Assembly: GCF_001907295.1 (NCBI RefSeq) | Contig: NZ_MQVR01000016.1 | Coordinates: 1-36,189 of the forward strand | Direction: 5' to 3' | Length of the DNA: 36,189 bases | From: Bowdeniella nasicola | GTDB lineage: Bacteria > Actinomycetota > Actinomycetes > Actinomycetales > Actinomycetaceae | Shown: positions 12,300 through 26,479 of the stretch, one piece after another | Layout of the letters: every line of letters starts with the position of its first letter | Numbering within the stretch: the first letter of the stretch is position 1 | Translations under genes and position numbers: made by a program | Notes under the pieces: generated by a model | What the model saw: the letters and a program-made list of their open reading frames with translations, nothing else | What the model was told of the DNA's origin: nothing | Databases searched by the model: none

Positions 12300-12884
12300 A
12301 TGACGCAGGCAGACCCCGTCCGCAAGCGGCTGCTCGATGCCGCCGACTCGATCCTGTTCATCGACGGCCCCGTCTCCACCCGGGTCGAAGAGATCCTGCA
12401 GCGCGCGGCCGCGGCTCCTGCCAGCCTGTACGCCCATTTCGGCTCGAAGGACGGCATCGTTATCGCGGCGCTGCGCCGCCGCCTGCAGGTCTGGTCCGAG
12501 ACCTGGAGTGAGGCGATCGATGCCGCGCAAACGCCGAACGATAAACTTCTCGCCGTCTTCACTGCCCTCACCACGTATCAACGCGACCGCCTGACCGAAC
12601 GCTGGTGCGCGTTTTCCGCGACCACGGCGGCGCTGCCCTATCCGAGCGAGGAGCTCACGAAGGTCCTCGCGGCCGAGGACGAACTTTTAAAGTCCCGCCT
12701 CCTGGCGTGTGCACAGCCGATCGCGGGCGATCGAGCCGCAGAGCTCGCTGAGCTCGTTGAGGTCTGCTACTGCGGCACCCTCACGCTCATGCTGCGCGGC
12801 ACCGCGTATGAGGACGCGATCGCCCGCGGACACGCCGCGGCACGGCTGACGCTTCAGGCTTGGTTGGCCGACTCCCACGCCTGA
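12300..12884 (+). CDS. TetR/AcrR family transcriptional regulator
   Basis: The protein is 194 residues. The N-terminal helix-turn-helix is VRKRLLDAADSILFIDGPVS ... VEEILQRAAAAPASLYAHFGSKDGIVIAAL, typical of TetR. The C-terminal ligand-binding part includes two Cys-containing stretches (LLACAQPI, VCYCGTLTL). The effector is unknown. It follows the DUF4442 gene by 4 bases and its last 31 bases overlap the convergent persulfide dioxygenase gene. Confidence 0.93.
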   Translation: MTQADPVRKRLLDAADSILFIDGPVSTRVEEILQRAAAAPASLYAHFGSKDGIVIAALRRRLQVWSETWSEAIDAAQTPNDKLLAVFTALTTYQRDRLTERWCAFSATTAALPYPSEELTKVLAAEDELLKSRLLACAQPIAGDRAAELAELVEVCYCGTLTLMLRGTAYEDAIARGHAAARLTLQAWLADSHA

Positions 12885-14239
12885 TAGCTGCCCGCCAGCT
12901 CGACGATGTCGAAGCCCACGCGACGCAGCGCCTGCGCGGCGACGGTATTGCGCATGCCCGTCTGGCAGTACGTGACGATCGTGCCCTCGCGCGGCAGCTC
13001 GTCCTGGTGCCACAGCACGCGAGCGGCGCTGAGCTGCTCGGCGCCCGGGATATGTCCCGCGGCGTATTCGTTCTTGTTGCGCACATCGAGCAAAAGGTCG
13101 TGGCCGAAGCCTTCCAGGTCGGCGACGCTCACCTCGGCGCGGACCGTGAGCTCAAGACCGTCGAGCGAGGTCACGAAGCCTGCGACGTTATCGACCCCGA
13201 CGCGGACCGTGTGGTCCCACAGTCGGTGGGCTTCTTCCTGATCGTTCGCGAGGAGGATCAACGCCGCATCATCGCTTTCCGGGTCGAATGCCCAGCCCGC
13301 ATAGGTGGCAGGCTTCGTCGCGGGGATCGCGAGCGCACCTTCGACGGTCGCTTCGTGGACGGCTTCCTTACCGCGGGTGTCGACAAAGACGTGGGTACCG
13401 GCAGCGACCTTCTCGCGCACCTCAGCTCCCGTCATCTCCGACAGTTCGCCGCGCTCACCCAGGATGTCCGGGCCCTGACGGTTCTGCCGCTTCATCCGAC
13501 CGAAGTAGGCGTGCGCATCCGGCTGGCCATCGAGCAGTTCATCGACGAATCCCTGCTCATCACCTTCCGCGACGTAGCGCGCCCACCACGCGAATTTCTT
13601 CTCGTAACCGACCGTTGAGGACGGCACCGAACCGAGCGCCTTGCCGCAGGCCGAGCCCGAGCCGTGCGCGGGATAGACCTGGATGTGGTCGGGCAGCGTC
13701 ACGAACGAATCGCGCAACGAAGCAAACACCTGGCGCGCGCCGCCAAAGCGGGTATCGACGCCGCCCGCGGCCTCGTCGAGGAGGTCGGGCCGGCCCAGGT
13801 CTCCGGCGAAGACGAAGTCGCCCGTGAACATGTAGCCGGGCTCATCCGCGAACGCCCCGTCAGTCAGGAGGAACGACAGGTGTTCGGGGGTATGCCCCGG
13901 CGTGTGGACGGCCTTGAGGGTGAGGTTTCCGATCTCGATCTCATCGCCGTCGTGTAGCCGGGTGCCGTCAAACTGGTACTGCCAGTCCTCGCCGCCTTCG
14001 GCGGACAGGAATATCTCGGCGCCGGTGGCCGCCGCGAGTTCGCGCGTGCCGGAAAGGTAGTCAGCGTGGATGTGGGTCTCGGTGACGTGCGTGATCTCCA
14101 TGTCGTTCTTTTTGGCAAGGTCGAGGTAGACCTGAATATCCCGGCGCGCGTCAATTACCAGCGCCTGCCCCATCTTTTGGCAGCCGATGAAATAGCTTGC
14201 CTGGGCAAGGTCTTCGTCGCAGATGCGTTCGAGTAGCAA
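12854..14239 (-). CDS. CstB-like persulfide dioxygenase with tandem rhodanese domains
   Basis: The protein is 461 residues from a TTG at 14239 behind GGAGG. The N-terminal metallo-beta-lactamase domain has THIHADYLSGTREL (His56, His58, Asp60), VHTPGHTPEHLSF and YPAHGSGSACGK, as in ETHE1-type persulfide dioxygenases. Two rhodanese domains follow. The middle one (VFVDTRGKEAVHEA ... LILLANDQEEAH) lacks a catalytic cysteine; the last has it in VTYCQTGMRN (about Cys425). This MBL, pseudo-rhodanese, rhodanese order is that of staphylococcal CstB, which converts persulfides to thiosulfate. A palindrome and a hairpin upstream suggest sulfide-responsive control. Confidence 0.92.
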   Translation of the reverse strand: MLLERICDEDLAQASYFIGCQKMGQALVIDARRDIQVYLDLAKKNDMEITHVTETHIHADYLSGTRELAAATGAEIFLSAEGGEDWQYQFDGTRLHDGDEIEIGNLTLKAVHTPGHTPEHLSFLLTDGAFADEPGYMFTGDFVFAGDLGRPDLLDEAAGGVDTRFGGARQVFASLRDSFVTLPDHIQVYPAHGSGSACGKALGSVPSSTVGYEKKFAWWARYVAEGDEQGFVDELLDGQPDAHAYFGRMKRQNRQGPDILGERGELSEMTGAEVREKVAAGTHVFVDTRGKEAVHEATVEGALAIPATKPATYAGWAFDPESDDAALILLANDQEEAHRLWDHTVRVGVDNVAGFVTSLDGLELTVRAEVSVADLEGFGHDLLLDVRNKNEYAAGHIPGAEQLSAARVLWHQDELPREGTIVTYCQTGMRNTVAAQALRRVGFDIVELAGSYQAWESANQA

Positions 14240-14268
14240 GGCGGACCTCCAAAAGTTCGTGGTCCGCC
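14240..14268 (-). promoter_or_regulatory. Leader hairpin overlapping the Shine-Dalgarno of the CstB-like gene
   Basis: On the minus strand GGCGGACC and GGTCCGCC form a perfect 8-bp stem with a 13-base loop that ends directly against the TTG start at 14239. The GGAGG Shine-Dalgarno straddles the loop and the second arm, so pairing would partly mask it. This suggests translational control, but it may be chance. Confidence 0.5.
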
Positions 14269-14275
14269 AACCATA

Positions 14276-14291
14276 ATACCCCTAGGGGTAT
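14276..14291. promoter_or_regulatory. Perfect 16-bp palindrome, CstR/CsoR-type operator candidate
   Basis: ATACCCCTAGGGGTAT is a perfect palindrome, 37 bases upstream of the CstB-like start codon. A G/C tract repeated inversely and flanked by A/T is the operator style of the CsoR/CstR family. CstR regulates persulfide dioxygenase genes in other bacteria. No cstR-like gene is in this window. Confidence 0.6.
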
Positions 14292-14309
14292 ATCTCAAGG
14301 GCTAGAAGA

Positions 14310-14528
14310 CTACCCCAGCACAAGCAGCGTCACGGCCGAAACTGCGGCCGCCGCCGGCAGGGTGACGACCCACGCCATACCGATCGGCTTCATCAGACGC
14401 CAGTTGGTCGCCTTGTTCGCGAGGCCAATCCCGAGCACCGCACCGATGAGGATGTGGGTCGAGGAGACCGGCAACCCCAGCACCGAAGCCAGCATGACGA
14501 CGACGGCCGCCGCCAGCTCGGCCGTGAA
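14310..14528 (-). pseudogene. C-terminal remnant of a PiT-family inorganic phosphate transporter
   Basis: The minus-strand frame encodes [20 protein letters not shown] then [20 protein letters not shown] and ends [22 protein letters not shown], stop at 14310-14312. [19 protein letters not shown] is the highly conserved C-terminal repeat signature of PiT permeases. Homology ends abruptly at 14528, where the frame turns into unrelated sequence next to the ABC operon. Only about 73 of roughly 330-500 residues remain, so this is a deletion remnant. Confidence 0.88.
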
Positions 14529-17189: not shown

Positions 17190-17735
17190 CTAGCGCTTTG
17201 TGGGCTCCCAGCCGAGGGCGGGCGCGACGTGATCGGCAAAGGATGCAAGGACGTGCAGGTTGTAGTCGACGCCGAGCTGGTTCGGGATTGTGAGCGTCAG
17301 GGTATCGGCACTCATGAGGGCGGCATCTGCGCGGAGCTGGTCGATCAGCACGTCGGGCTCGGCGGCGTACGTCTTGCCGAAGGTCGAGGTGAATCCGTCG
17401 ATGACGCCAACCTGGTCCGTCGAGCCCTGGCCCCGCACTCCGAAATAGCGACGGTCGATATCGTTCATGACCGGGAAGATGGAGCGGCTGACCGAGACCC
17501 GCGGGGTCCGGCGATGCCCGGCAGCGGTAAAAGCGGCCCGGTAGCGCTCGATCTGTTCGGCCTGCAGGTCGGCGAAGCTATCGCCCGTCGTCTCTGTCAG
17601 CAGCGTGGAGCTTATGAGGTTCATGCCGCGCTGCGCCGGCTCGGGTGAGCCACGCGAGATCCCAAGGGCAACCCGACCATCGGCGAGTAGGTCGAGCGCG
17701 GCAGCCTCTTCCGCGAGATACAGCGGGTTTTCGTA
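17190..17735 (-). pseudogene. C-terminal part of an LLM-class flavin-dependent oxidoreductase split by the mobile element
   Basis: Reading on the minus strand from 17735 it encodes YENPLYLAEEAAALDLLADG, then RVALGISRGSPE and, later, AEQIERYRAAFTAAGHRRTPRVSVSRS, TYAAEPDVLIDQL, LTIPNQLGVDYNLHVLASFADHVAPALGWEPTK. These are hallmarks of luciferase-like monooxygenases. The N-terminal half lies 8.8 kb away at 26517-26756. Homologues have roughly 75-80 more residues between GISRGSPE and GMNLISST, so this piece also carries an internal deletion. The upstream codons to 17765 belong to the element end. Confidence 0.9.
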
Positions 17736-17754
17736 GCACATGTCAGGGTTACAA
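17716..17754. other. attL: left element-chromosome junction
   Basis: Chromosomal LLM sequence (coding YENPLYL on the minus strand) meets element sequence at TAGC 17734-17737. The element half-site 17736-17754 is the inverse of 26496-26514 at 13 of 19 positions, and all six differences are transitions. Confidence 0.75.
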
Positions 17755-17779
17755 CACCCGTTCACGTAAGCTTGGTTGC

Positions 17780-19216
17780 ATGGTTGAACTGGTATCGCTG
17801 AGGAAGACGAACGAGGTCGCCGCGTACGTCCGCGCTTCGATGGATCGCAAGGGCGACCGGTGGACGGTCGAGACCCAGTTGCGGAAGATCAGGGCGCTGG
17901 CCGAGGCGAAGGACTGGGAGGTCGTCGAGGTCTACGACGACAACGCGGTCTCGGCGACGAAGAAGCGCCGCGCTGGCACCCGGTGGGCCGAGATGCTGGA
18001 TGACGCCCGGGCGGGTCGGTTCTCGATGGTCGTCGCGGTGGACATGGACCGGTTGCTGCGCAGCACGAAGGACTTGAATACGCTGATCGACCTCGGTCTG
18101 CGGGTCGTCACCGTGGACGGCGAGATCGACCTCTCGACGGCGGACGGAGAGTTCCGGGCGACGATGCTCGCCGCTCTCGCGCGGTTCGAGGCGCGTCGCA
18201 AGGCCGAGCGTCAGATCAGGTCGAACGAGCGCCGCCGCGCCGAGGGCATACCGGCGTCCACCTGCAAGGCGTTCGGCTGGACAAGGGAGGGCGAGCTGAT
18301 CGAGGAGGAGGCCGACGCGATTCGGCGGGCCTTCGACGCGTTCCTCGGCGAGCCGTCGCTGTCGATCCGGCGCATCCGCGAGGACCTGAACAACGCCGGT
18401 CATCTGACCGCGCGCGGGGCGGAGTTCTCCGTCGATGCCGTGCGGTACCTGCTGGCGAACCCGCTCTACGCTGGCTACATCAAGCACTACGCCTCGGGCG
18501 AGCTGTACCCGGTGCAGGGCGCGGGGTTCCCGCCCATCGTCAGCGAACAGACATGGCGGGCTGCGGTGGCGAAGCTGGAGGACAACGTGCGGAGGTCGGC
18601 GAGGCAGGGCAACCAACCGAAGTACCTCCTGTCCACGATCGGGCTGTGCGGGAAGTGCGGCGCGACGCTCGTCTCGGGGACGAACAGCCGCAAGCAGCCG
18701 ACGTACCGCTGCGGTGAGCAGTTCCACCTCACCCGCCAGCGCGAGCCCGTCGATGCGATGGTCACCGAGGCGGTGCTCACCCGACTGTCCTCGGTGGACG
18801 TGCACGACCTCGTGATGCCGCAGGAAGATGCTGGGCCGGACCGCGAAGAGCTGCTGAGCGAGCGGAACGCCCTGGTCGAGCGCGTCAAGGAGCTGAGCCC
18901 GCTGCTGCGCGACATCCACCAGCCCGTGCTGGAGATCACCGCGGCGATCAACGACGTGAAGGCTCGCATCGACGAGATCGACGCGGAGCTGCTCGACCGA
19001 TCGGTGTCGGTGGCGGCGAAGCTGCTCGCGGACGTGGACGAGCTGGTCGGCACCGCGGAGCGCCGCGAGGTGGTCGAGTCGAAGTGGAAGGAGTTGGACG
19101 TGGACCGTCGCCGGATGCTCGTGGACGAGCTGGTGACGGTGACAATCGAGCCCATCGCGCCGGGTCACGTGAAGTTCGACCCCGACCTCATTCGAATAGA
19201 GCCTCGTCGCGACTGA
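17780..19216 (+). CDS. Large serine recombinase (site-specific integrase)
   Basis: The protein is 478 residues from ATG 17780. The N-terminal resolvase domain has the catalytic serine at Ser20 in AAYVRAS, and conserved arginines in AVDMDRLLRSTKDL (about 86-99) and EARRKAERQIRSN. The recombinase domain follows (about 155-275; FGWTREGELIEEEADAIRRAF), then a zinc beta-ribbon (Cys290, Cys293, Cys311 and probably His316) and a coiled-coil-rich C-terminus (about 350-420). It catalyses attP x attB integration, and excision with a directionality factor. It starts 43 bases inside the element's left end, the usual position. A gene for the directionality factor is not certain; the small proteins downstream are candidates. 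Confidence 0.96.
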   Translation: MVELVSLRKTNEVAAYVRASMDRKGDRWTVETQLRKIRALAEAKDWEVVEVYDDNAVSATKKRRAGTRWAEMLDDARAGRFSMVVAVDMDRLLRSTKDLNTLIDLGLRVVTVDGEIDLSTADGEFRATMLAALARFEARRKAERQIRSNERRRAEGIPASTCKAFGWTREGELIEEEADAIRRAFDAFLGEPSLSIRRIREDLNNAGHLTARGAEFSVDAVRYLLANPLYAGYIKHYASGELYPVQGAGFPPIVSEQTWRAAVAKLEDNVRRSARQGNQPKYLLSTIGLCGKCGATLVSGTNSRKQPTYRCGEQFHLTRQREPVDAMVTEAVLTRLSSVDVHDLVMPQEDAGPDREELLSERNALVERVKELSPLLRDIHQPVLEITAAINDVKARIDEIDAELLDRSVSVAAKLLADVDELVGTAERREVVESKWKELDVDRRRMLVDELVTVTIEPIAPGHVKFDPDLIRIEPRRD

Positions 19217-19398
19217 CACGCGAGTCGACTCGTCAGTGGACCGGTGAGTCGAGTCGTGGGAGAATAGTTGCAGACAAGAAGATCCCACCGGGGCCGCGAC
19301 TTAGAAGCGCGGGGTTCTGCTCCCGGATGAGTAGCCGGTCAAACAGCCCAACGAACGTGGCGGGGAACCGGAAGCACACTCATGTTTGAGGACTTCCG
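19217..19398. other. Intergenic region between integrase and the rep-mob operon, with palindrome
   Basis: CGAGTCGACTCG at 19221-19232 is a 12-bp palindrome, and a related GAGTCGAGTCG follows at 19246-19256. Together they could form a terminator for the integrase or an operator. I see no confident -35/-10 pair for the downstream operon and no gene longer than a few codons. Confidence 0.45.
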
Positions 19399-19611
19399 AT
19401 GCCTGTCGTTATCGACGCTCCCCGCGCATCTGCGCTGGACCGTCCTGGGCTCGACCAGGACCTGAACCCCGTTCCGCAGGCTGATGGGCTCGATCCCGTC
19501 ATCGCTGCCGCCCTCGCCGCCGGTCGCCGAGCGGGTGAGCGCCTGGCCCGCACGCCGCTGACCCCGCGCCAGCGCGCCGCGGTCGCCGCTGTGATGGGCG
19601 GTGATCGCTGA
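19399..19611 (+). CDS. Small element-encoded protein, unknown function
   Basis: The frame encodes 70 residues. The start ATG 19399 follows GAGGA at a fair distance. The N-terminal half is acidic and proline-containing (LDRPGLDQDLNPVPQADGLD); the C-terminal half is Ala/Arg rich and probably helical (ALAAGRRAGERLARTPLT, RQRAAVAAVMGG). It overlaps the next start by one base (TGATG), and third-position GC is high, so it looks real. I recognise no family. As a small basic protein beside an integrase it might be a directionality or accessory factor, but this is speculation. Confidence 0.65.
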   Translation: MPVVIDAPRASALDRPGLDQDLNPVPQADGLDPVIAAALAAGRRAGERLARTPLTPRQRAAVAAVMGGDR

Positions 19612-19859
19612 TGAGCGCCAACTTCACCGCTTTCGACTACGTGAACGGCTTCCGCTGGCGTCTGGGCGATCCCGCCCTCGCCGACAGCGAGGCGCACCTC
19701 TACGACCTCGGTGTGCTCCGCTCCGTGCTGGAGGAGGCCGTCGAGATCGCCGTCGCCGATGCCCGCGCCGACGGTGTGACCTGGGCCAAGATCGGCGACG
19801 CCCTCGGCGTCACGCACCAGGCCGTCATCAAGCGCTACCGCAAGGGCGGTGCCCGATGA
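19611..19859 (+). CDS. Small helix-turn-helix protein of the mobile element
   Basis: The frame encodes 82 residues. The C-terminal segment VTWAKIGDALGVTHQAVIKRYRKG is a clear helix-turn-helix (WxxIGxxLGVxxQAVxxRY, as in sigma-like or Xre-like helices). The N-terminal half (DLGVLRSVLEEAVEIAVADARA) is helical and acidic. It starts on the last base of the previous stop, and its own stop overlaps the rep start (ATGA). It probably binds DNA as a regulator of the rep-mob operon or as an accessory factor for excision or replication; which one is unknown. Confidence 0.78.
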   Translation: MSANFTAFDYVNGFRWRLGDPALADSEAHLYDLGVLRSVLEEAVEIAVADARADGVTWAKIGDALGVTHQAVIKRYRKGGAR

Positions 19860-22078
19860 ACGCCGCCGAACGCACAAGCGCCCTCGTGTCCGCCGACCTG
19901 ACCCCGCCCGGAGGGCCTGGCCTGGCACCCGCCGAAGGCGGGCTGCCCGTCGTCGATCCGAATGTCGCGAACCCGGTTCTCGCCGTCGAGGACCTTCTCG
20001 AAGAAAACGGCTATACGGCTGCACAGAGCGATTCCGCTGGCTCCGACACGACCGCCGATCTCAGCTCTGACCTGGGATCTACCGCCGCAATTCATGCGCG
20101 GCCTTCCTTGGGTGGCCGCGCATCCGTTTCAGAAACGGCTGCACAGGCGCCTACTTCGGCTACACCCGTGGACTTCGCCGAGATGGACGTGCCGGGTGCC
20201 GATCCCGGTGATGAGGTTGAGGCGTTCGTGGTCGAATCCACGCCCGCGCAGGTCGCCGAGGCGAAGGATTTTTTCGCCCGGGCGAAGGCTGCGGAGAGCT
20301 CGGAGCAGGTGAAGCGCGCACGGATGCAGTCGCGCGTGTTCTCGGTGATGCAGTACCGGGAGCACCCGGAGACCGGCGAGGTCATGCTCACGCAGGAGCA
20401 GATCGACGAGGGCCTCGCGGCGCTGGGCGATCGCCTCCACCGCTGGGCCTACGTGTGGCACCCGTACGACCGCCTGGTCGAGGTGGACGAGGGCACCGGC
20501 GAGACGGTGTGCTGCGGAACCAAGGGCCTGCACGCGCACATGGTGCTGTGGGTCGCCGATGCGGACGGTCCGCGCCCCACGATCCGCACGGTCTCCGATG
20601 CCTTCTCGATCCCTTCGGCGCGGGTGAAGCCGCCGAAGGAGACCGCGGAGCAGGACGGCACCGAGCACAAGGGCCGAGGCGCTGCGGAGAAGGCGTTTTT
20701 CGACCTCGCCGAGTACCTGCCGCACGAATCGCGCGGGAGGGACGCAACCCCCGGCATCCACCAGTCGGATCGGCACGACCTCGTGGACAAGACGCAGGAG
20801 GGCAAGCCCGGCAAGTACCAGTACGGGCGCGGGCGGATCGTCGCGAACTTCGATTTCGGCCGGGAGCTGGACGCGCACATGGCGATGCGCCGCACCGCCG
20901 CGGAGGGCGGCGGCAGCGCGAAGCTGAGCAAGCTCTTCCAGGCCGTGGGCAAGGGTTCGCTGACGCTGAAGCAGGTCCGTGATCAGGAGCCTGCGATCTA
21001 CTTTGCGAAGGGCAACCTGGCGCATTTTCAGAAGCTGCGCGGCGACTTCCTCTCGCACCAGGACGCGCCGGAGTCGGTCATGAACTTCTACGTGTTCGGG
21101 GAGGGCGGCACGGGCAAGGACCTGCTCGCGAAGGCGCTCGCTCGCGCCCTGGCCCCGGACGCGGACAAGCCGTACTTCAAGGTCGGCGGCGAGAACGTCT
21201 CGTGGGAGGGATACGACGGCGAGCCGGTCGTGATCTGGGAGGACATGCGCGTCGGCGACATGATCCGCACGGCGAAGAGCCGGGGAATGCTCTTCCGCAT
21301 TCTCGGCCCGTGGCGCGAGCCGGACGAGAAGCCGGTCGTGAACATCAAGGGGTCCAAGACGCAGCTGCTCAACCGGGTGAACATTGTGACGGGGCCTGAG
21401 GGTTACGAGGAGTTCCTCCGGGGCTTGGCGGGCGAGTACGAGTCGATGCAGGGCGGAGTTCGGGTCAAGCACCATGCGGAGAACCTCGGGCAGGGGTTCC
21501 GCCGCTTCCCGGTGATCATCCCGGTGGCCGAGCGTGAGTTCTCGATCTTCGTGAACTCCGGCGTGCTCAACGGCACCCGCGAGTACCAGAGCTACGAGCG
21601 GTACGAGCACATGCGCCAGGACCTGGAGCTGCTGGCACGCAAGTGCAAGGCGATCAAGGACACCGCCGAGCGGGAGCGCGTTCGCGGTGCGATGGAGGCG
21701 CGCACGGTCGCGCCGATCGTGGAGCAGCACGACCGGATCGCATGCCCTGAGCTGGACGCGATTGACGCGGACGATCTGTTCGCGGAGTTCGCCGGGGTCG
21801 GGCAGCCAATCCCGCAGAGTTCCGTCGAGGTCGCAGTTGCACCGAGTGAGCCGAGCCCCCGCGATCGCTGCATCTGCGACGAGTGGCAGGGCTACGCCCT
21901 GGACCACACCGAGTCCTGCCCGATCCGCACGGATGCCGAGGCGGCGATGGCGGAGATGCGCCAGCGCGAGGCCGAGCGCGAAGCGGCGGCGGAGGCCCAC
22001 CGTCAGGCCGAGCTTGAGCGGAAGGTCGCGCGGCTCCGCGCGAACGGCGGCCTGCTGGTCGTGGGAGGTGCACGATGA
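19856..22078 (+). CDS. Replication initiator: HUH-like endonuclease plus P-loop (SF3-like) helicase
   Basis: The protein is 740 residues from ATG 19856. Residues 1-150 are low-complexity and acidic. An endonuclease-like region follows, with KGLHAHMVLW giving a His-x-His pair (His226, His228), and FFDLAEYLPHES (Tyr287) plus GKYQYGRGRI resembling motif 3 of the Rep_2/pMV158-like initiators. A P-loop domain comes next: Walker A FGEGGTGKD (415-422), Walker B PVVIWEDMR (457-465). The C-terminus has a Cys/His cluster (CICDEWQGYALDHTESCP) and a charged coil. Rep with nuclease and helicase in one chain suggests rolling-circle replication of the excised circle. SF3 assignment is by motif spacing and is less certain than the P-loop itself. 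Confidence 0.88.
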   Translation: MNAAERTSALVSADLTPPGGPGLAPAEGGLPVVDPNVANPVLAVEDLLEENGYTAAQSDSAGSDTTADLSSDLGSTAAIHARPSLGGRASVSETAAQAPTSATPVDFAEMDVPGADPGDEVEAFVVESTPAQVAEAKDFFARAKAAESSEQVKRARMQSRVFSVMQYREHPETGEVMLTQEQIDEGLAALGDRLHRWAYVWHPYDRLVEVDEGTGETVCCGTKGLHAHMVLWVADADGPRPTIRTVSDAFSIPSARVKPPKETAEQDGTEHKGRGAAEKAFFDLAEYLPHESRGRDATPGIHQSDRHDLVDKTQEGKPGKYQYGRGRIVANFDFGRELDAHMAMRRTAAEGGGSAKLSKLFQAVGKGSLTLKQVRDQEPAIYFAKGNLAHFQKLRGDFLSHQDAPESVMNFYVFGEGGTGKDLLAKALARALAPDADKPYFKVGGENVSWEGYDGEPVVIWEDMRVGDMIRTAKSRGMLFRILGPWREPDEKPVVNIKGSKTQLLNRVNIVTGPEGYEEFLRGLAGEYESMQGGVRVKHHAENLGQGFRRFPVIIPVAEREFSIFVNSGVLNGTREYQSYERYEHMRQDLELLARKCKAIKDTAERERVRGAMEARTVAPIVEQHDRIACPELDAIDADDLFAEFAGVGQPIPQSSVEVAVAPSEPSPRDRCICDEWQGYALDHTESCPIRTDAEAAMAEMRQREAEREAAAEAHRQAELERKVARLRANGGLLVVGGAR

Positions 22079-22380
22079 GTACCTTCGACGGCCAGCCGCA
22101 GCCGATTCGTCAGGGCTCCGGTGGAGCGCTGGAGGATCGGGCTGCATGCCCGCGCAGCGGCCCCCGGAGGGCCCCGGGAACCTTGGAGCGCAGCGGAAAG
22201 GTGTATGGGGCTACACCTTCCGTTCCGGAGGTTGTCGCAGAGGCTCCACATCAGGGCGCAGGGTCCCAGATGTGGAGGGGCGATGACCTCCGGAACGGAA
22301 GGCCCCACGGGAGTGCCGCCGGAGGCTCCGGGGCACGTCGCGCAGCGGCGGGCGTCGGATCATCGGGAGGTGCGCGATGA
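22075..22380 (+). CDS. Doubtful 101-residue ORF spanning the structured rep-mob spacer
   Basis: The frame starts at an ATG that overlaps the rep stop (ATGA) and has a strong GGGAGG site, and its stop overlaps the relaxase ATG in the same way. That spacing argues for translation. Against it, the product is low-complexity (Gly, Ala, Arg, Ser, Pro), third-position bias fades after about 40 codons, and most of the frame is occupied by nested inverted repeats. It may exist mainly to carry ribosomes across a cis-acting DNA region. I recognise no family. Confidence 0.35.
   Translation: MSTFDGQPQPIRQGSGGALEDRAACPRSGPRRAPGTLERSGKVYGATPSVPEVVAEAPHQGAGSQMWRGDDLRNGRPHGSAAGGSGARRAAAGVGSSGGAR
22216..22302. 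repeat. Nested inverted repeats between rep and mob: candidate oriT or replication origin
   Basis: The outer arms are 22216-22237 and 22281-22302 (20 of 22 positions complementary, starting CCTTCCGTTCCGGAGGT). Inside them a perfect 9-bp stem pairs CTCCACATC (22244-22252) with GATGTGGAG (22269-22277) around a 16-base loop. The stem can extend outward with TGGGG/CCCCA across a 5-base bulge. MobV-family origins of transfer lie directly upstream of the mob gene and contain such repeats, so oriT is the best guess; a double-strand origin for Rep is the alternative. Confidence 0.65.
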
Positions 22381-23642
22381 GCTACACGGCAACTTTTGAC
22401 GCGAGCCACAAGGTCAAGGCGTCAGGCGCTCACGCGACGAACTTCGTTCGCCACATCGCCCGCGATGCGGATCAGGCCGCGGGGTTCTCCTTCGCTCAGC
22501 GGAACCCGAACATCGATCCGGCGCGCACGTCGATGAACATCACGATGGTCAACGACGGCAACGGAGGTTGGCGTGCCCCGGTCGTGACGCAGGACGAGAA
22601 GGGCAACGACCGGCCGCCGTCGGCAGAGCTGACGGACTATCTGGACGCGCGCCTGGCGACGGTCGAGAAGAAGATCAAGGCCGACGCGGTGGCGATGCGC
22701 CCCCTCGTCTTGCAGCTCGATCCGAAGTGGTTCGCCGAGCACAACCCGGACTGGCGCGAGGACGGTCTGAACGCCGAAGCAGAGCAGTACATCGGCACGC
22801 AGCTCGACTGGGCCGCCCAGGAGTTCGGGCAGCAGAACCTTCCGGGCTACTCCGTGCATATGGATGAGACGAATCCTCAACTCCAGCTCCTGTTCACCCC
22901 GGTGACGGAGGACGGGAGGCTGAGCCAGAAGGACTTTTTCAAGGGTCCCGGCGATCTCCAGCGCCAGCACAAGGCGCACCGCCAGGCGCTGGCCGATGCC
23001 GGGTACGACGTCGAGTTCAAGGTCACCAAGCGCTCGAAGGAGCACCTGAGCAGCGAGGAGTTCGCCAAGAAGGTTGACCAGGCCCGCGAACGGGCCGCTG
23101 AGGCCGCGCAGCACCTCGCCACGGTCCGCGAGCAGGTCGAACAGTCGGACTTCGGCCAGTTCTTCGAGCAGCAGCACCCAGAGGCGTTCGGCCAGGTGCT
23201 GGACGAGTACACGAACGAGATCGAGCAGCGCATCCGCGCGCAGGAGGAGCAGGGACATGGACAGCATCACCGCGATGGCCACGGCGAGGGCGACGGAGAA
23301 GATCGAGCAGCAGCGGACTACGGAGATGCTGGAGACGTTGGTCTCGAAGCACGCCGCCGTCGAGCAGCAGCTCACGACGCTGACGAAGGCCGTGAGGGAC
23401 CTCACCGGGCATCAGAAGATCATGGACGAGGAGCTGACGAAGCGGATCGACCGGGCGTCGATCTCGCAGCCGTCCGCCAGCACGTCGCCGCAGATCGCGA
23501 GCGTCGAGAGCAGGCTGAGCGAGATCGAGAGCACGCTCGGCGAGTTCGCGCAGAGTCTCGACGGGAAGCGTTTGAGCGCCGCATCGCAGAGCTTGGTCGC
23601 GGAGGCGCAGAAGAATCGCGCGGCTACGGCCTCGGCGATTGA
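22377..23642 (+). CDS. MobV/Pre-family relaxase with altered metal-site motif
   Basis: The frame has 421 residues; coding character fits only the first about 292 (to 23252). It starts at ATG 22377 behind GGGAGG. MobV features: NFVRHIARD with His26 at the position of the MobM catalytic histidine; NPNIDPARTSMNI (44-56), the 'NIDPxRxxxN' motif; and VHMDETNPQLQLLFTPVTEDGRLSQKDFF (160-188). In MobV the last has HxDExxPHxH, but here both final histidines are Gln (Gln168, Gln170), while His161 and Glu164 remain. A charged helix (KVDQARERAAEAAQHL) follows. From 23253 the frame overlaps the next gene and looks non-coding; a single T-to-G change (TGA to GGA) at 23253 would explain a lost stop. Confidence 0.85.
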   Translation: MSYTATFDASHKVKASGAHATNFVRHIARDADQAAGFSFAQRNPNIDPARTSMNITMVNDGNGGWRAPVVTQDEKGNDRPPSAELTDYLDARLATVEKKIKADAVAMRPLVLQLDPKWFAEHNPDWREDGLNAEAEQYIGTQLDWAAQEFGQQNLPGYSVHMDETNPQLQLLFTPVTEDGRLSQKDFFKGPGDLQRQHKAHRQALADAGYDVEFKVTKRSKEHLSSEEFAKKVDQARERAAEAAQHLATVREQVEQSDFGQFFEQQHPEAFGQVLDEYTNEIEQRIRAQEEQGHGQHHRDGHGEGDGEDRAAADYGDAGDVGLEARRRRAAAHDADEGREGPHRASEDHGRGADEADRPGVDLAAVRQHVAADRERREQAERDREHARRVRAESRREAFERRIAELGRGGAEESRGYGLGD

Positions 23643-24132
23643 CGGGCTCAAGGTGCAGGCCGCGGCGAACCAGAAGCTCGTGAGCCAGGTCGGCGGTGCG
23701 GTGCAGTGGATCGAGAAGCGCACCGAGGAGCGCGTGCAGAAGGCCGTCGAGCAGGTCGCCGGGGATGCCTCGACCACGATGACGGCGAACCTCGACGCCG
23801 CGAACGAGCGGGCCGAGCGGATCTTCGCCGCGACAGCGAAGGTTGAGGCGCGCCAGCTCTGGAGCGCCGCCGCCGCGATGCTCCTCGCGCTCGTGCCGCT
23901 CGCGATGCTGGTCGCGGGCGTCTGGATGGCCGCAGCGGGCCTCATCACGGGTGCTCAGTGGGCGCTGGACGTGGACGGGAGCGTGTGGCTCGGCATCGGG
24001 CGGTGGCTCGTAGTCGGCGCTGGCCTCGCCGGGGCCGGCTACGCCCTCTTCGCCTCCGCCCGCTGGGTCGTCGGCCTCGCGGAGACGTGGAAGGGCCGCG
24101 GGATGCCGTCATGGCCCCGCTGGCGGAGGTGA
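23257..24132 (+). CDS. Coiled-coil protein with two C-terminal membrane helices (mobilization accessory?)
   Basis: The frame encodes 291 residues from ATG 23257 behind AGGAGGAGCAGG. Residues 1-195 are helical with heptad-like spacing (TEKIEQQRTTEMLETLVSK, VESRLSEIESTLGEFAQSL, TANLDAANERAERIFAAT), predicted coiled coil. Hydrophobic segments at about 203-231 and 244-268 flank a short outside loop, and a basic tail ends in WPRWRR. Third-position GC is strong in this frame, which identifies it as the real one in the overlap with the relaxase frame. Position after a relaxase suggests a role in mobilization or membrane tethering of the relaxosome, but no family is recognised. Confidence 0.78.
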   Translation: MDSITAMATARATEKIEQQRTTEMLETLVSKHAAVEQQLTTLTKAVRDLTGHQKIMDEELTKRIDRASISQPSASTSPQIASVESRLSEIESTLGEFAQSLDGKRLSAASQSLVAEAQKNRAATASAIDGLKVQAAANQKLVSQVGGAVQWIEKRTEERVQKAVEQVAGDASTTMTANLDAANERAERIFAATAKVEARQLWSAAAAMLLALVPLAMLVAGVWMAAAGLITGAQWALDVDGSVWLGIGRWLVVGAGLAGAGYALFASARWVVGLAETWKGRGMPSWPRWRR

Positions 24133-24184
24133 CCCCAGCTCCCGAGGGCAAGCGCGCGGAGCGCGTGCGGCAGAACTCCCCAGA

Positions 24185-24214
24185 GTGACAATAGGTCAGC
24201 CACTACTGTATAGT
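24185..24214 (+). promoter_or_regulatory. Promoter of the cmtR-ATPase operon
   Basis: GTGACA (24185-24190) and TATAGT (24209-24214) are spaced by 18 bases and end 7 bases before the cmtR ATG, so the transcript would be leaderless. ACTG-7-CAGT (24204-24218) straddles the -10 and is a candidate operator for CmtR autoregulation. Confidence 0.65.
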
Positions 24215-24221
24215 TCAGTGC

Positions 24222-24581
24222 ATGCTGACTATTGCTTCTCGCCTCGACGTCATGAACCGGCTGGGCCGGGCCATGGCGGACCCGACGCGCTCCCGGATCC
24301 TGATGACCCTGCTGGACGGGCCGAGCTACCCGGCCGTGCTCTCGCGCGAGCTGGAGCTGACGCGTTCGAACGTGTCGAACCACCTGACCTGTCTTCGCGA
24401 CTGCGGGATCGTGGTCGCCGAGCCCGAGGGTCGGCAGACGCGCTACGAGATCGCCGACCCGCACCTCGCGGCGGCGCTCACGGCGCTGGTGGACGTGACG
24501 CTGGCCGTGGACGAGCACGCGCCGTGCTTGGACGCCGCGTGCACTGTGCCGGGCTGCTGCGGGACGGGAGCGGGCGCGTGA
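24222..24581 (+). CDS. cmtR: Cd(II)/Pb(II)-sensing ArsR-family repressor CmtR
   Basis: The protein is 119 residues. The winged helix includes RSNVSNHLTCLRDCGIVVAEPEGRQTRYE. Cys57 and Cys61 in HLTCLRDCG and Cys102 in HAPCLDAAC fall at the residue numbers of the Cd/Pb ligands of mycobacterial CmtR (Cys57, Cys61, Cys102), which is strong support. Extra cysteines (107, 112, 113) follow. In the apo form CmtR represses its own operon; binding Cd(II) or Pb(II) releases it. The stop overlaps the GTG of the ATPase gene by 4 bases. Confidence 0.95.
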   Translation: MLTIASRLDVMNRLGRAMADPTRSRILMTLLDGPSYPAVLSRELELTRSNVSNHLTCLRDCGIVVAEPEGRQTRYEIADPHLAAALTALVDVTLAVDEHAPCLDAACTVPGCCGTGAGA

Positions 24582-26479
24582 GCGCGGCGTGCGGCTGCGA
24601 CGAGCCGGAGACCCGGGTCGGCGAGAAAGCCGATGAGGAGCAGGAGCGTCCGTGGTGGCGTGACCGCGGGATCATGGTCCCGGTGCTCTCCGGCGTCGCC
24701 TTCGGCACGGGCCTGGTCCTGGAATGGACAGGGGCGGAGGTCCCGGCGCTGGTGGCGTTCTGGATCAGCCTGCTGCTGGGCGCGTCGACGTTCACCCCGG
24801 GCGCGATCCGCAAGCTGTTCAAGGGCAAGCTGGGCATCGGCCTGCTGATGACGATCAGCGCGGTCGGCGCGGTGATCCTCGGCTACGTCGAGGAGGCCGC
24901 CGCCTTGGCGTTCCTGTACTCCATCGCCGAAGCGCTGGAGGACAAGGCCATGGACCGCGCCCGCGGCGGGCTGCGGGCTCTCCTCAAGCTCGTCCCGGAG
25001 ACCGCGACCATCCGGCGGGACGGCGCGCCCGTGGAGGTCGCTGCGAAGGACCTCCAGGTCGGGCAGCTCATGCTGGTGCGCCCCGGTGAGCGGATCGCGA
25101 CCGACGGCATCGTCCGCACAGGTCGGTCGAGCCTGGATACCTCCGCGATCACCGGCGAGTCGATCCCGGTCGAGGTCGAGCCCGGCGACGCGGTGTCGGC
25201 CGGGGCGATCAACACCGCCGGTGCCCTGGAGGTCGAGGCGACCGCGGCGGGTACGGACAACTCGCTGACCACGATCGTGGAGCTGGTCGAGCAGGCGCAG
25301 GCCGAGAAGGGAGACCGCGCTCGGCTGGCCGACCGGATCGCCCGACCCCTCGTGCCCGGCGTGCTGATCCTCGCCGCTCTCGTCGCGATCATCGGCTCGC
25401 TGCTCGGCGACCCGGAGCTGTGGATCACCCGCGCCCTCGTGGTGCTCGTCGCCGCGTCGCCGTGCGCGCTGGCGATCTCCGTCCCGCTCACCGTCGTCGC
25501 CGCGATCGGCTCGGCGAGCCGGTTCGGCGTGATCATCAAGTCCGGTGCCGTGTTCGAGCGCTTCGGCGTGATCCGCCACGTCGCCGTCGACAAGACCGGC
25601 ACCCTCACCCGCAACGAGCCCGCCGTCACCGCCGTCCTCACCGCCGCCGGCGTGACCGAGGCGCCGGCCCTGGCCTGGGCGGCATCCCTGGAGCAGCACA
25701 GCACCCACCCGCTGGCCGCCGCGATCACCGCCGCCGCACCCGGAGTCCCCGCCGCCCTGGACGTCACCGAGCAGGCCGGGCACGGCATCGAAGGCACCCT
25801 CGACGGGGCCCGGGTCACCGTCGGCAGCCCTCGCTGGCTGGACTCGGGGACGCTCAAGGACCAGGTCGCGGGCCTGGAGGAGCAGGGCATGACCGTCGTC
25901 ATTGTGCACCTCGACGGGGTCCCGGTCGCCGCGATCGGGGTCCGCGACGAGCTTCGCCCCGAGGTCCCAGAGGTCGTGCGCACCCTCGCGGCCCAGGGCG
26001 TCGGGATGACCATGCTCACCGGCGACAACGCCCGCACCGCCCGCGCGCTGGCCGCGCAGGCCGGGATCGGGGACGTGCGCGCCGAGCTGCGTCCCGAGGA
26101 CAAGGCCGCCGCGATCAGCGAGCTGGGCAGGCACGGCTCGGTCGCGATGATCGGCGACGGCATCAACGACGCCCCCGCCCTGGCGGCCGCGGACATCGGC
26201 ATCGCGATGGGCGCGACCGGCTCCGATGCCGCGATCGAGTCCGCCGACGTCGCCTTCACCGGCCACGACCTGCGGCTCCTCCCGCGGGCGTTCGACCACG
26301 CCCGCCGCGGCAGGCACATCATCAACCAGAACATCATCCTGTCCCTGCTGATCATCACCGCCCTGCTGCCGCTCGCCCTGTTCGGCGTACTCGGCCTCGC
26401 AGCGGTGGTGCTCGTGCACGAGATCGCCGAGGTGATAGTGATCCTCAACGGGCTCCGCGCCGCCAGGACGAGGAAGTAG
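24578..26479 (+). CDS. Heavy-metal P1B-type ATPase with SPC metal motif
   Basis: The protein is 633 residues from a GTG that overlaps the cmtR stop. P-type motifs: TGES (192-195, actuator), SPCAL (294-298, transmembrane metal motif), DKTGTLT (338-344, phosphorylated Asp) and MIGDGINDAPALAAADIGIAMG (hinge). There is no full N-terminal metal-binding domain, only CGC at residues 5-7. SPC rather than CPC and the short N-terminus point to the P1B-4 (CtpD/CtpJ/CoaT-like) group, but the last helix reads VLVHEIAEVIVILNGLR. It exports divalent metal; with CmtR upstream, Cd/Pb is the likely inducer, while Co, Zn or Fe are possible substrates. It ends 37 bases before the element end. Confidence 0.93.
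   Translation: MSAACGCDEPETRVGEKADEEQERPWWRDRGIMVPVLSGVAFGTGLVLEWTGAEVPALVAFWISLLLGASTFTPGAIRKLFKGKLGIGLLMTISAVGAVILGYVEEAAALAFLYSIAEALEDKAMDRARGGLRALLKLVPETATIRRDGAPVEVAAKDLQVGQLMLVRPGERIATDGIVRTGRSSLDTSAITGESIPVEVEPGDAVSAGAINTAGALEVEATAAGTDNSLTTIVELVEQAQAEKGDRARLADRIARPLVPGVLILAALVAIIGSLLGDPELWITRALVVLVAASPCALAISVPLTVVAAIGSASRFGVIIKSGAVFERFGVIRHVAVDKTGTLTRNEPAVTAVLTAAGVTEAPALAWAASLEQHSTHPLAAAITAAAPGVPAALDVTEQAGHGIEGTLDGARVTVGSPRWLDSGTLKDQVAGLEEQGMTVVIVHLDGVPVAAIGVRDELRPEVPEVVRTLAAQGVGMTMLTGDNARTARALAAQAGIGDVRAELRPEDKAAAISELGRHGSVAMIGDGINDAPALAAADIGIAMGATGSDAAIESADVAFTGHDLRLLPRAFDHARRGRHIINQNIILSLLIITALLPLALFGVLGLAAVVLVHEIAEVIVILNGLRAARTRK

Follow-up and report, generated by a model that had tools for sequence, protein, structure and literature searches.

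Immediately upstream of a predicted persulfide dioxygenase gene, between positions 14240 and 14291 of the window (the whole stretch of 36,189 nucleotides analyzed here), a 16-bp palindrome is followed by an inverted repeat that runs up to the start codon. Do the two elements constitute two layers of control? An earlier note on this sequence took the first for an operator of the CsoR/CstR family and the second for a hairpin that masks the ribosome-binding site; both are present in the sequence at the positions given there.

The gene downstream occupies 12854–14239 on the minus strand (461 aa, stop included). Its product combines a metallo-beta-lactamase domain (PF00753) with a rhodanese domain (PF00581), both above cut-off, and matches the sequences of PDB entries 3tp9 (E 3e-105) and 3r2u (E 8e-84), the second of which we take to be S. 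aureus CstB. None of the NCBIfam equivalog models reached its own cut-off for this protein. We regard it as CstB-like, with persulfide dioxygenase and rhodanese as predicted activities; the palindrome adjoins the gene, as had been claimed. The closest named relative of the protein is from Bowdeniella nasicola (77% identity). Homologous genes were collected from 85 loci (80 of 257 relatives plus L092–L096), and the start was located in 76 of them, a set that includes the locus itself and in which L093 and L012 are apparently one organism. The TTG at 14239–14237 aligns with ATG in all 75 of the other located genes and is therefore taken to be the right start.

On the minus strand, 14310–14528 is what remains of the C-terminal part of a PiT-type transporter gene, a place held in B. 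nasicola by an intact frame of ∼550 codons between the ABC permease and dioxygenase genes. Further along, on the plus strand, lies a mobile-element-like block (17645–26479) with a serine recombinase (PF00239, PF07508), a Mob_Pre relaxase, a P-type ATPase and a large frame that has no Pfam match.

The palindrome, ATACCCCTAGGGGTAT (14276–14291, no strand assigned), is perfect over its 16 bp, and its exact letters occur once in the 2.64-Mb genome. The same motif stands upstream of homologous genes: with up to two mismatches it was found within 250 bp of 67 of the 76 located starts (control 1/76), in at least two copies at 24 of the 76, and at zero or one mismatch in all nine loci without a located start. 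It is absent upstream of nine of the 76 genes, including three from another genus of the same family. Some Arthrobacter-type dioxygenase promoters (L020, L025, L027, L028, L030, L032, L034, L043) carry three copies in a row at similar spacing. An Arthrobacter-like dioxygenase locus also occurs in a record titled Vibrio cholerae strain 35D (L046), and its leader is almost identical to that of L041; this is probably contamination or a wrong label.

The position of the motif relative to the promoter is conserved too. Across 40 loci with a single operator, the four bases before the last three bases preceding the operator read TTGC (88, 82, 80 and 90%, respectively), and −10-like boxes (resembling TATACT or TAGAAT) follow the operator directly or one base later. 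In register with this TTGC block, a −35 box, TTGAGA (14293–14298, minus strand), is predicted in the window; a predicted −10 box, TATGGT (14270–14275, minus strand), follows after 17 bp, the spacer being filled by the operator. From this conserved layout transcription is predicted to begin 6–8 nt after the −10 box, at 14264–14262 on the minus strand. In S. coelicolor the mRNA of the dioxygenase gene is reported to start 12 bases before the start codon (PMC7533328), and very short leaders therefore occur in this gene family.

The predicted start bears directly on the second element. It consists of a left arm, GGCGGACC (14268–14261), and a right arm, GGTCCGCC (14247–14240), both read on the minus strand: a perfect 8-bp stem with a 13-nt loop, the right arm of which adjoins the TTG and overlaps the last two G of the Shine-Dalgarno sequence GGAGG (14250–14246), just as the earlier note had described. 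The note went on to combine the two elements, with CstR acting on transcription while the hairpin, as RNA, partly masks the Shine-Dalgarno sequence; translation from a weak TTG would thereby be lowered or regulated. Several features fit such a model. None of 2000 dinucleotide shuffles of the 39-nt leader reached an 8-bp stem; the fold z of the leader is −4.89, whereas the 75 other genes average −0.41 (sd 0.91), four of them lying at z ≤ −2; the TTG is the only one among the 76 starts; and folding shows the last two G of GGAGG paired in RNAs that begin at 14264 or upstream.

Set against these are chance, conservation and the promoter. Of 3000 39-nt pieces drawn at random from the window, 31 reached an 8-bp stem; of 20000 36-nt pieces drawn at random from both strands of ∼84 kb of the genome, 323 were no less stable when folded, so that 1–2% of random pieces are as strong. 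A stem of this kind lies over the Shine-Dalgarno sequence in two of 113 Shine-Dalgarno-plus-start combinations in sampled sequence, the site itself being part of the sample. The hairpin is only mildly unusual. Among the 75 other located genes no leader has a comparable fold, and the hairpin is missing from relatives including B. nasicola, whose leader is unrelated to that of the window and identical to that of G033, a genome of the same genus as the window's, which makes Bowdeniella the probable genus. No Rfam family matches over the site; the only match in the 601 bases searched lies elsewhere and is sub-threshold (19.4 bits against a gathering threshold of 49). Finally, the stem needs an RNA that begins no further downstream than 14264, and a start at 14263 or beyond abolishes it: the start predicted from the conserved promoter straddles this limit, falls inside the left arm and would leave at most 4 bp of stem.

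We therefore read the hairpin as most likely incidental, given its absence from the 75 other genes, its random-piece strength and the start at its limit of stability. It looks private to the species, and probably most of it lies upstream of the mRNA 5′ end. As a conserved Shine-Dalgarno-masking regulator it was rejected on the same three counts, and control at two levels appears unlikely: the transcriptional layer is supported and the translational one is weak. A different function for the inverted repeat, as a stabilizer of the mRNA 5′ end or as the site of another DNA-binding protein, would suit its position at the predicted end of the transcript. Yet the repeat, with loops of 8–18 nt allowed, occurs once in the genome, as often as its reversed control, and not at all in the B. 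nasicola-like genome G033; such a function is accordingly quite improbable. The same count led us to discard the hairpin as a recurrent element. No terminator was found in 14200–14400.

Returning to the operator, we asked what would bind it. A profile search with PF02583, the CsoR/CstR family, finds a single gene in the genome, on another contig (C198), and none near the dioxygenase gene, in agreement with the earlier suggestion that the repressor is encoded in trans. The protein scores 72–73 bits with PF02583 (DUF156) against a cut-off of 22.8 and aligns to PDB 7mq1 and 7mq2; 7MQ2 bears the name CstR (PMC9774590). Cysteines occupy both sensing positions (Cys36 and Cys65), Gly61 takes the place of the copper CsoR histidine, and there is no histidine anywhere in the protein. 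Both cysteines are present in 54 of 54 distinct CstR homologues from the fetched loci, and histidine at position 61 in none. The sole member of the family in this genome is, by its residues, of the CstR type. Its gene is preceded, 17 bases before the start codon, by ATACCCCTAGGGGGTAT, a 17-bp form of the palindrome, and followed by a gene for a pyridine-nucleotide-disulfide reductase with a rhodanese domain, which scores 383 bits with the CoA-disulfide reductase model TIGR03385, below the cut-off of 579. In G060 (contig C15, L294) a second cstR-like frame, separate from the lysS-linked cstR (L127), also has the exact 17-bp operator form upstream.

These observations bear on a copper-related reading, by which the palindrome would serve a copper-sensing CsoR and have the dioxygenase gene beside it by accident. 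A palindrome with G/C tracts is reported to be common to CsoR-family operators at large (PMC10318464), and CsoR and CstR share one Pfam family. The histidine ligand is important for copper CsoR. Its place is taken by glycine in a protein devoid of histidine, it is missing from all 54 homologues at these loci, and the sites are surrounded by sulfur and thiol genes; a copper operator is thus highly implausible here. The palindrome is instead a predicted CstR-type operator, which bears out the assignment made at the outset.

Copies of the motif elsewhere in the genome fall on a coherent gene set rather than being scattered at unrelated sites. Two outcomes that would have spoken against the earlier note, stray copies and the lack of a CstR homologue, thus did not occur. 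With up to three mismatches there are seven sites (reversed control, one): upstream of the dioxygenase–rhodanese gene, cstR, trxB–trxA, a TsoY-family gene, a gene for a small Cys/His protein and an SQR-like gene, the six proposed regulon members, and at the 5′ end of a tRNA-Gln. The trxB product scores above cut-off with TIGR01292 and trxA is the next gene; the TsoY-family gene scores 429 bits with NF047644 (versus 150). The site before the SQR-like gene is degenerate (three mismatches), and the relative of this gene in G033 does not reach the cut-off of the type III SQR selenoprotein-subtype model. The tRNA-Gln 5′ end mimics half an operator and is a recurrent false positive (L010:4006, L210:1500, L264:2000, L269:2003).

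In four genomes of the genus the 16-bp form with up to two mismatches gives 19 sites versus three for the control (in G060, three versus two). Fourteen of the 19 precede regulon genes; two have the sequence of the tRNA-Gln site (G000:C2, at a tRNA-Gln, and G033:C11, judged from its letters alone), one (G060:C17) lacks a regulon gene, and G033:C25 and G082:C262 are left out of this account of contexts. All four genomes have a site before cstR, counting the exact 17-bp form in two of them, and before the small-protein gene. Membership of trxBA is indicated by sites with one mismatch in two species. The TsoY-family gene, which takes its name from a selenoprotein family of unknown role, is preceded by the motif in three genomes (L003:1551–2756, L126 and L208). 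The 17-bp form was also tried as a search motif with two mismatches, and was of little use beyond its exact copies (16 sites versus seven for the control).

Of 149 genomes of the order, 54 contain the motif without a mismatch; its reversed control is found in none. A cstR gene (E 1e-12 or better) is encoded in 75 of the 149 and in 53 of the 54 with the motif; the exception, G244, has its sole site at a tRNA-Gln (L210), and 22 of the 75 cstR genomes have no exact motif. We inspected 72 of a summed total of ∼107 exact sites. At 57 of these a reference gene (cstR, CoA-disulfide-reductase-like, dioxygenase, rhodanese, SQR, TsoY or small protein) reads away within 400 bp, a raw count that carries no matched random-site background. 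The other 15 sites comprise six that precede a thioredoxin gene (E 6e-16 or better to the genome's own TrxA), one before a glutaredoxin-like gene, one before a gene that weakly resembles SLAC1 (E 0.01), three at tRNA-Gln and four with no assigned context.

The small Cys/His protein recurs among these genes. The copy encoded in this genome, 54 residues long, belongs to a family of ∼55 residues with the consensus MCRPVTCxxCGKTTWAGCGQHVDxV...C, which is found in 73 of the 149 genomes of the order and in 19 of 198 in a sample of the phylum; 64 of the 73 also encode cstR. In 66 small proteins C2, C7 and C10 are invariant by selection, because the pattern used to pick the proteins demanded them; it made no such demand of C18, H21 and C35. 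From 66 of the 73 genomes 68 loci were obtained, one of which was dropped for an in-frame stop. Within 200 bp upstream of the gene the motif is present at 40 of the remaining 67 (control 1/67), a cstR-like ORF lies within 600 bp at 31, and one or the other is present at 51. In the phylum sample 16 of 20 loci could be placed: four have the motif (control 0) and nine a sulfur gene nearby.

No Pfam or NCBIfam model matches the protein and, up to E 10, no PDB sequence does. The AlphaFold2 model has a mean pLDDT of 75.8 and a pTM of 0.49; a Foldseek search for fold relatives returned eight matches up to E 10, none of them clear (best E 4.9), and VIA-align found none at Z 2 among 15 chains. In the open-access literature the protein was not found. 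As far as these searches show, the small protein would be a recurrent member of the CstR regulon, and its Cys/His pattern suggests metal binding. We consider it somewhat probable that this protein has a core effector role when Actinomycetes respond to persulfide through CstR, and that it probably binds zinc or sulfur as a partner of the dioxygenase, CoA-disulfide-reductase-like and thioredoxin branches. On the same reading the response would not be confined to a single operon but would be a dispersed regulon that extends to trxBA, the main thioredoxin system.

Taken together, the locus is very likely explained by the operator of a CstR-type persulfide-sensing repressor, placed in the promoter and belonging to a dispersed regulon, next to an incidental hairpin. 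This reading joins what was observed (the motif, its gene contexts and conservation, the layout of the promoter and the co-occurrence with cstR) to a binding event, a persulfide response and a transcription start that we infer. CstR, encoded on C198 upstream of the CoA-disulfide-reductase-like/rhodanese gene, would bind in the −35/−10 spacer of the dioxygenase–rhodanese promoter and block RNA polymerase. Persulfides or polysulfides would modify its two cysteines and release it from the DNA, and cstR and the reductase gene, the dioxygenase–rhodanese gene, trxBA, the TsoY-family gene, the small Cys/His gene and probably the SQR-like gene would be induced jointly. With transcription probably beginning inside the left arm of the hairpin, the RNA would carry a shortened stem at most.

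Much of this has precedent. ScCsoR of S. coelicolor is reported to bind ATACCn6GGTAT before a persulfide dioxygenase gene and to be released by polysulfide (PMC7533328). Its circuit (sco0620, persulfide dioxygenase, rhodanese, sulfite transporter) is alike in the class of 16-bp motif, the dioxygenase target and autoregulation, and its release by sulfane sulfur through two cysteines is what we suppose for the CstR studied here (PMC7533328). The targets described for ScCsoR are, however, neighboring genes of one cluster (PMC7533328), whereas here the sites are genome-wide and include trxBA, the TsoY-family gene and the small protein; the thioredoxin genes of S. coelicolor are reported to be under AdpA (PMC9952706). 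In S. aureus, CstR is likewise described as a dithiol repressor over a CstB-like dioxygenase–rhodanese gene, but one that likely regulates a single operon directly (PMC5480029), in contrast to an operator at several separate transcription units. The YrkD cluster of Bacillus licheniformis is similar in placing pdo, sqr, rhodanese and a hypothetical thioredoxin, YdfQ, under a CstR-like repressor, so that a thioredoxin under such control is not new in itself; it differs in being one contiguous 11-gene cluster, and its published description, as far as we could draw on it, mentions no counterpart of the small protein (PMC9918477). TTHA1953 of Thermus thermophilus, also of the CsoR family, controls sulfur genes that lie far from the gene encoding it, but it is described with a different operator, TACNNTACNNNNGTANNGTA, and with Sox targets (PMC10318464). 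The operator, the type of sensor and the dioxygenase target are of known kinds; as far as the searches show, what is new is that the layout is dispersed and takes in trxBA and the TsoY-family gene, and that the small protein recurs as a member.

If this reading is right, comparing promoters is a way to discount even a conspicuous hairpin at a start codon, and one well-defined motif would suffice to read, from sequence alone, the complete persulfide regulon in a large group of bacteria that includes pathogens as well as soil and skin bacteria. It would also tie thioredoxin and the TsoY-family protein to reactive sulfur, and would give an unstudied family of small proteins its first functional context.
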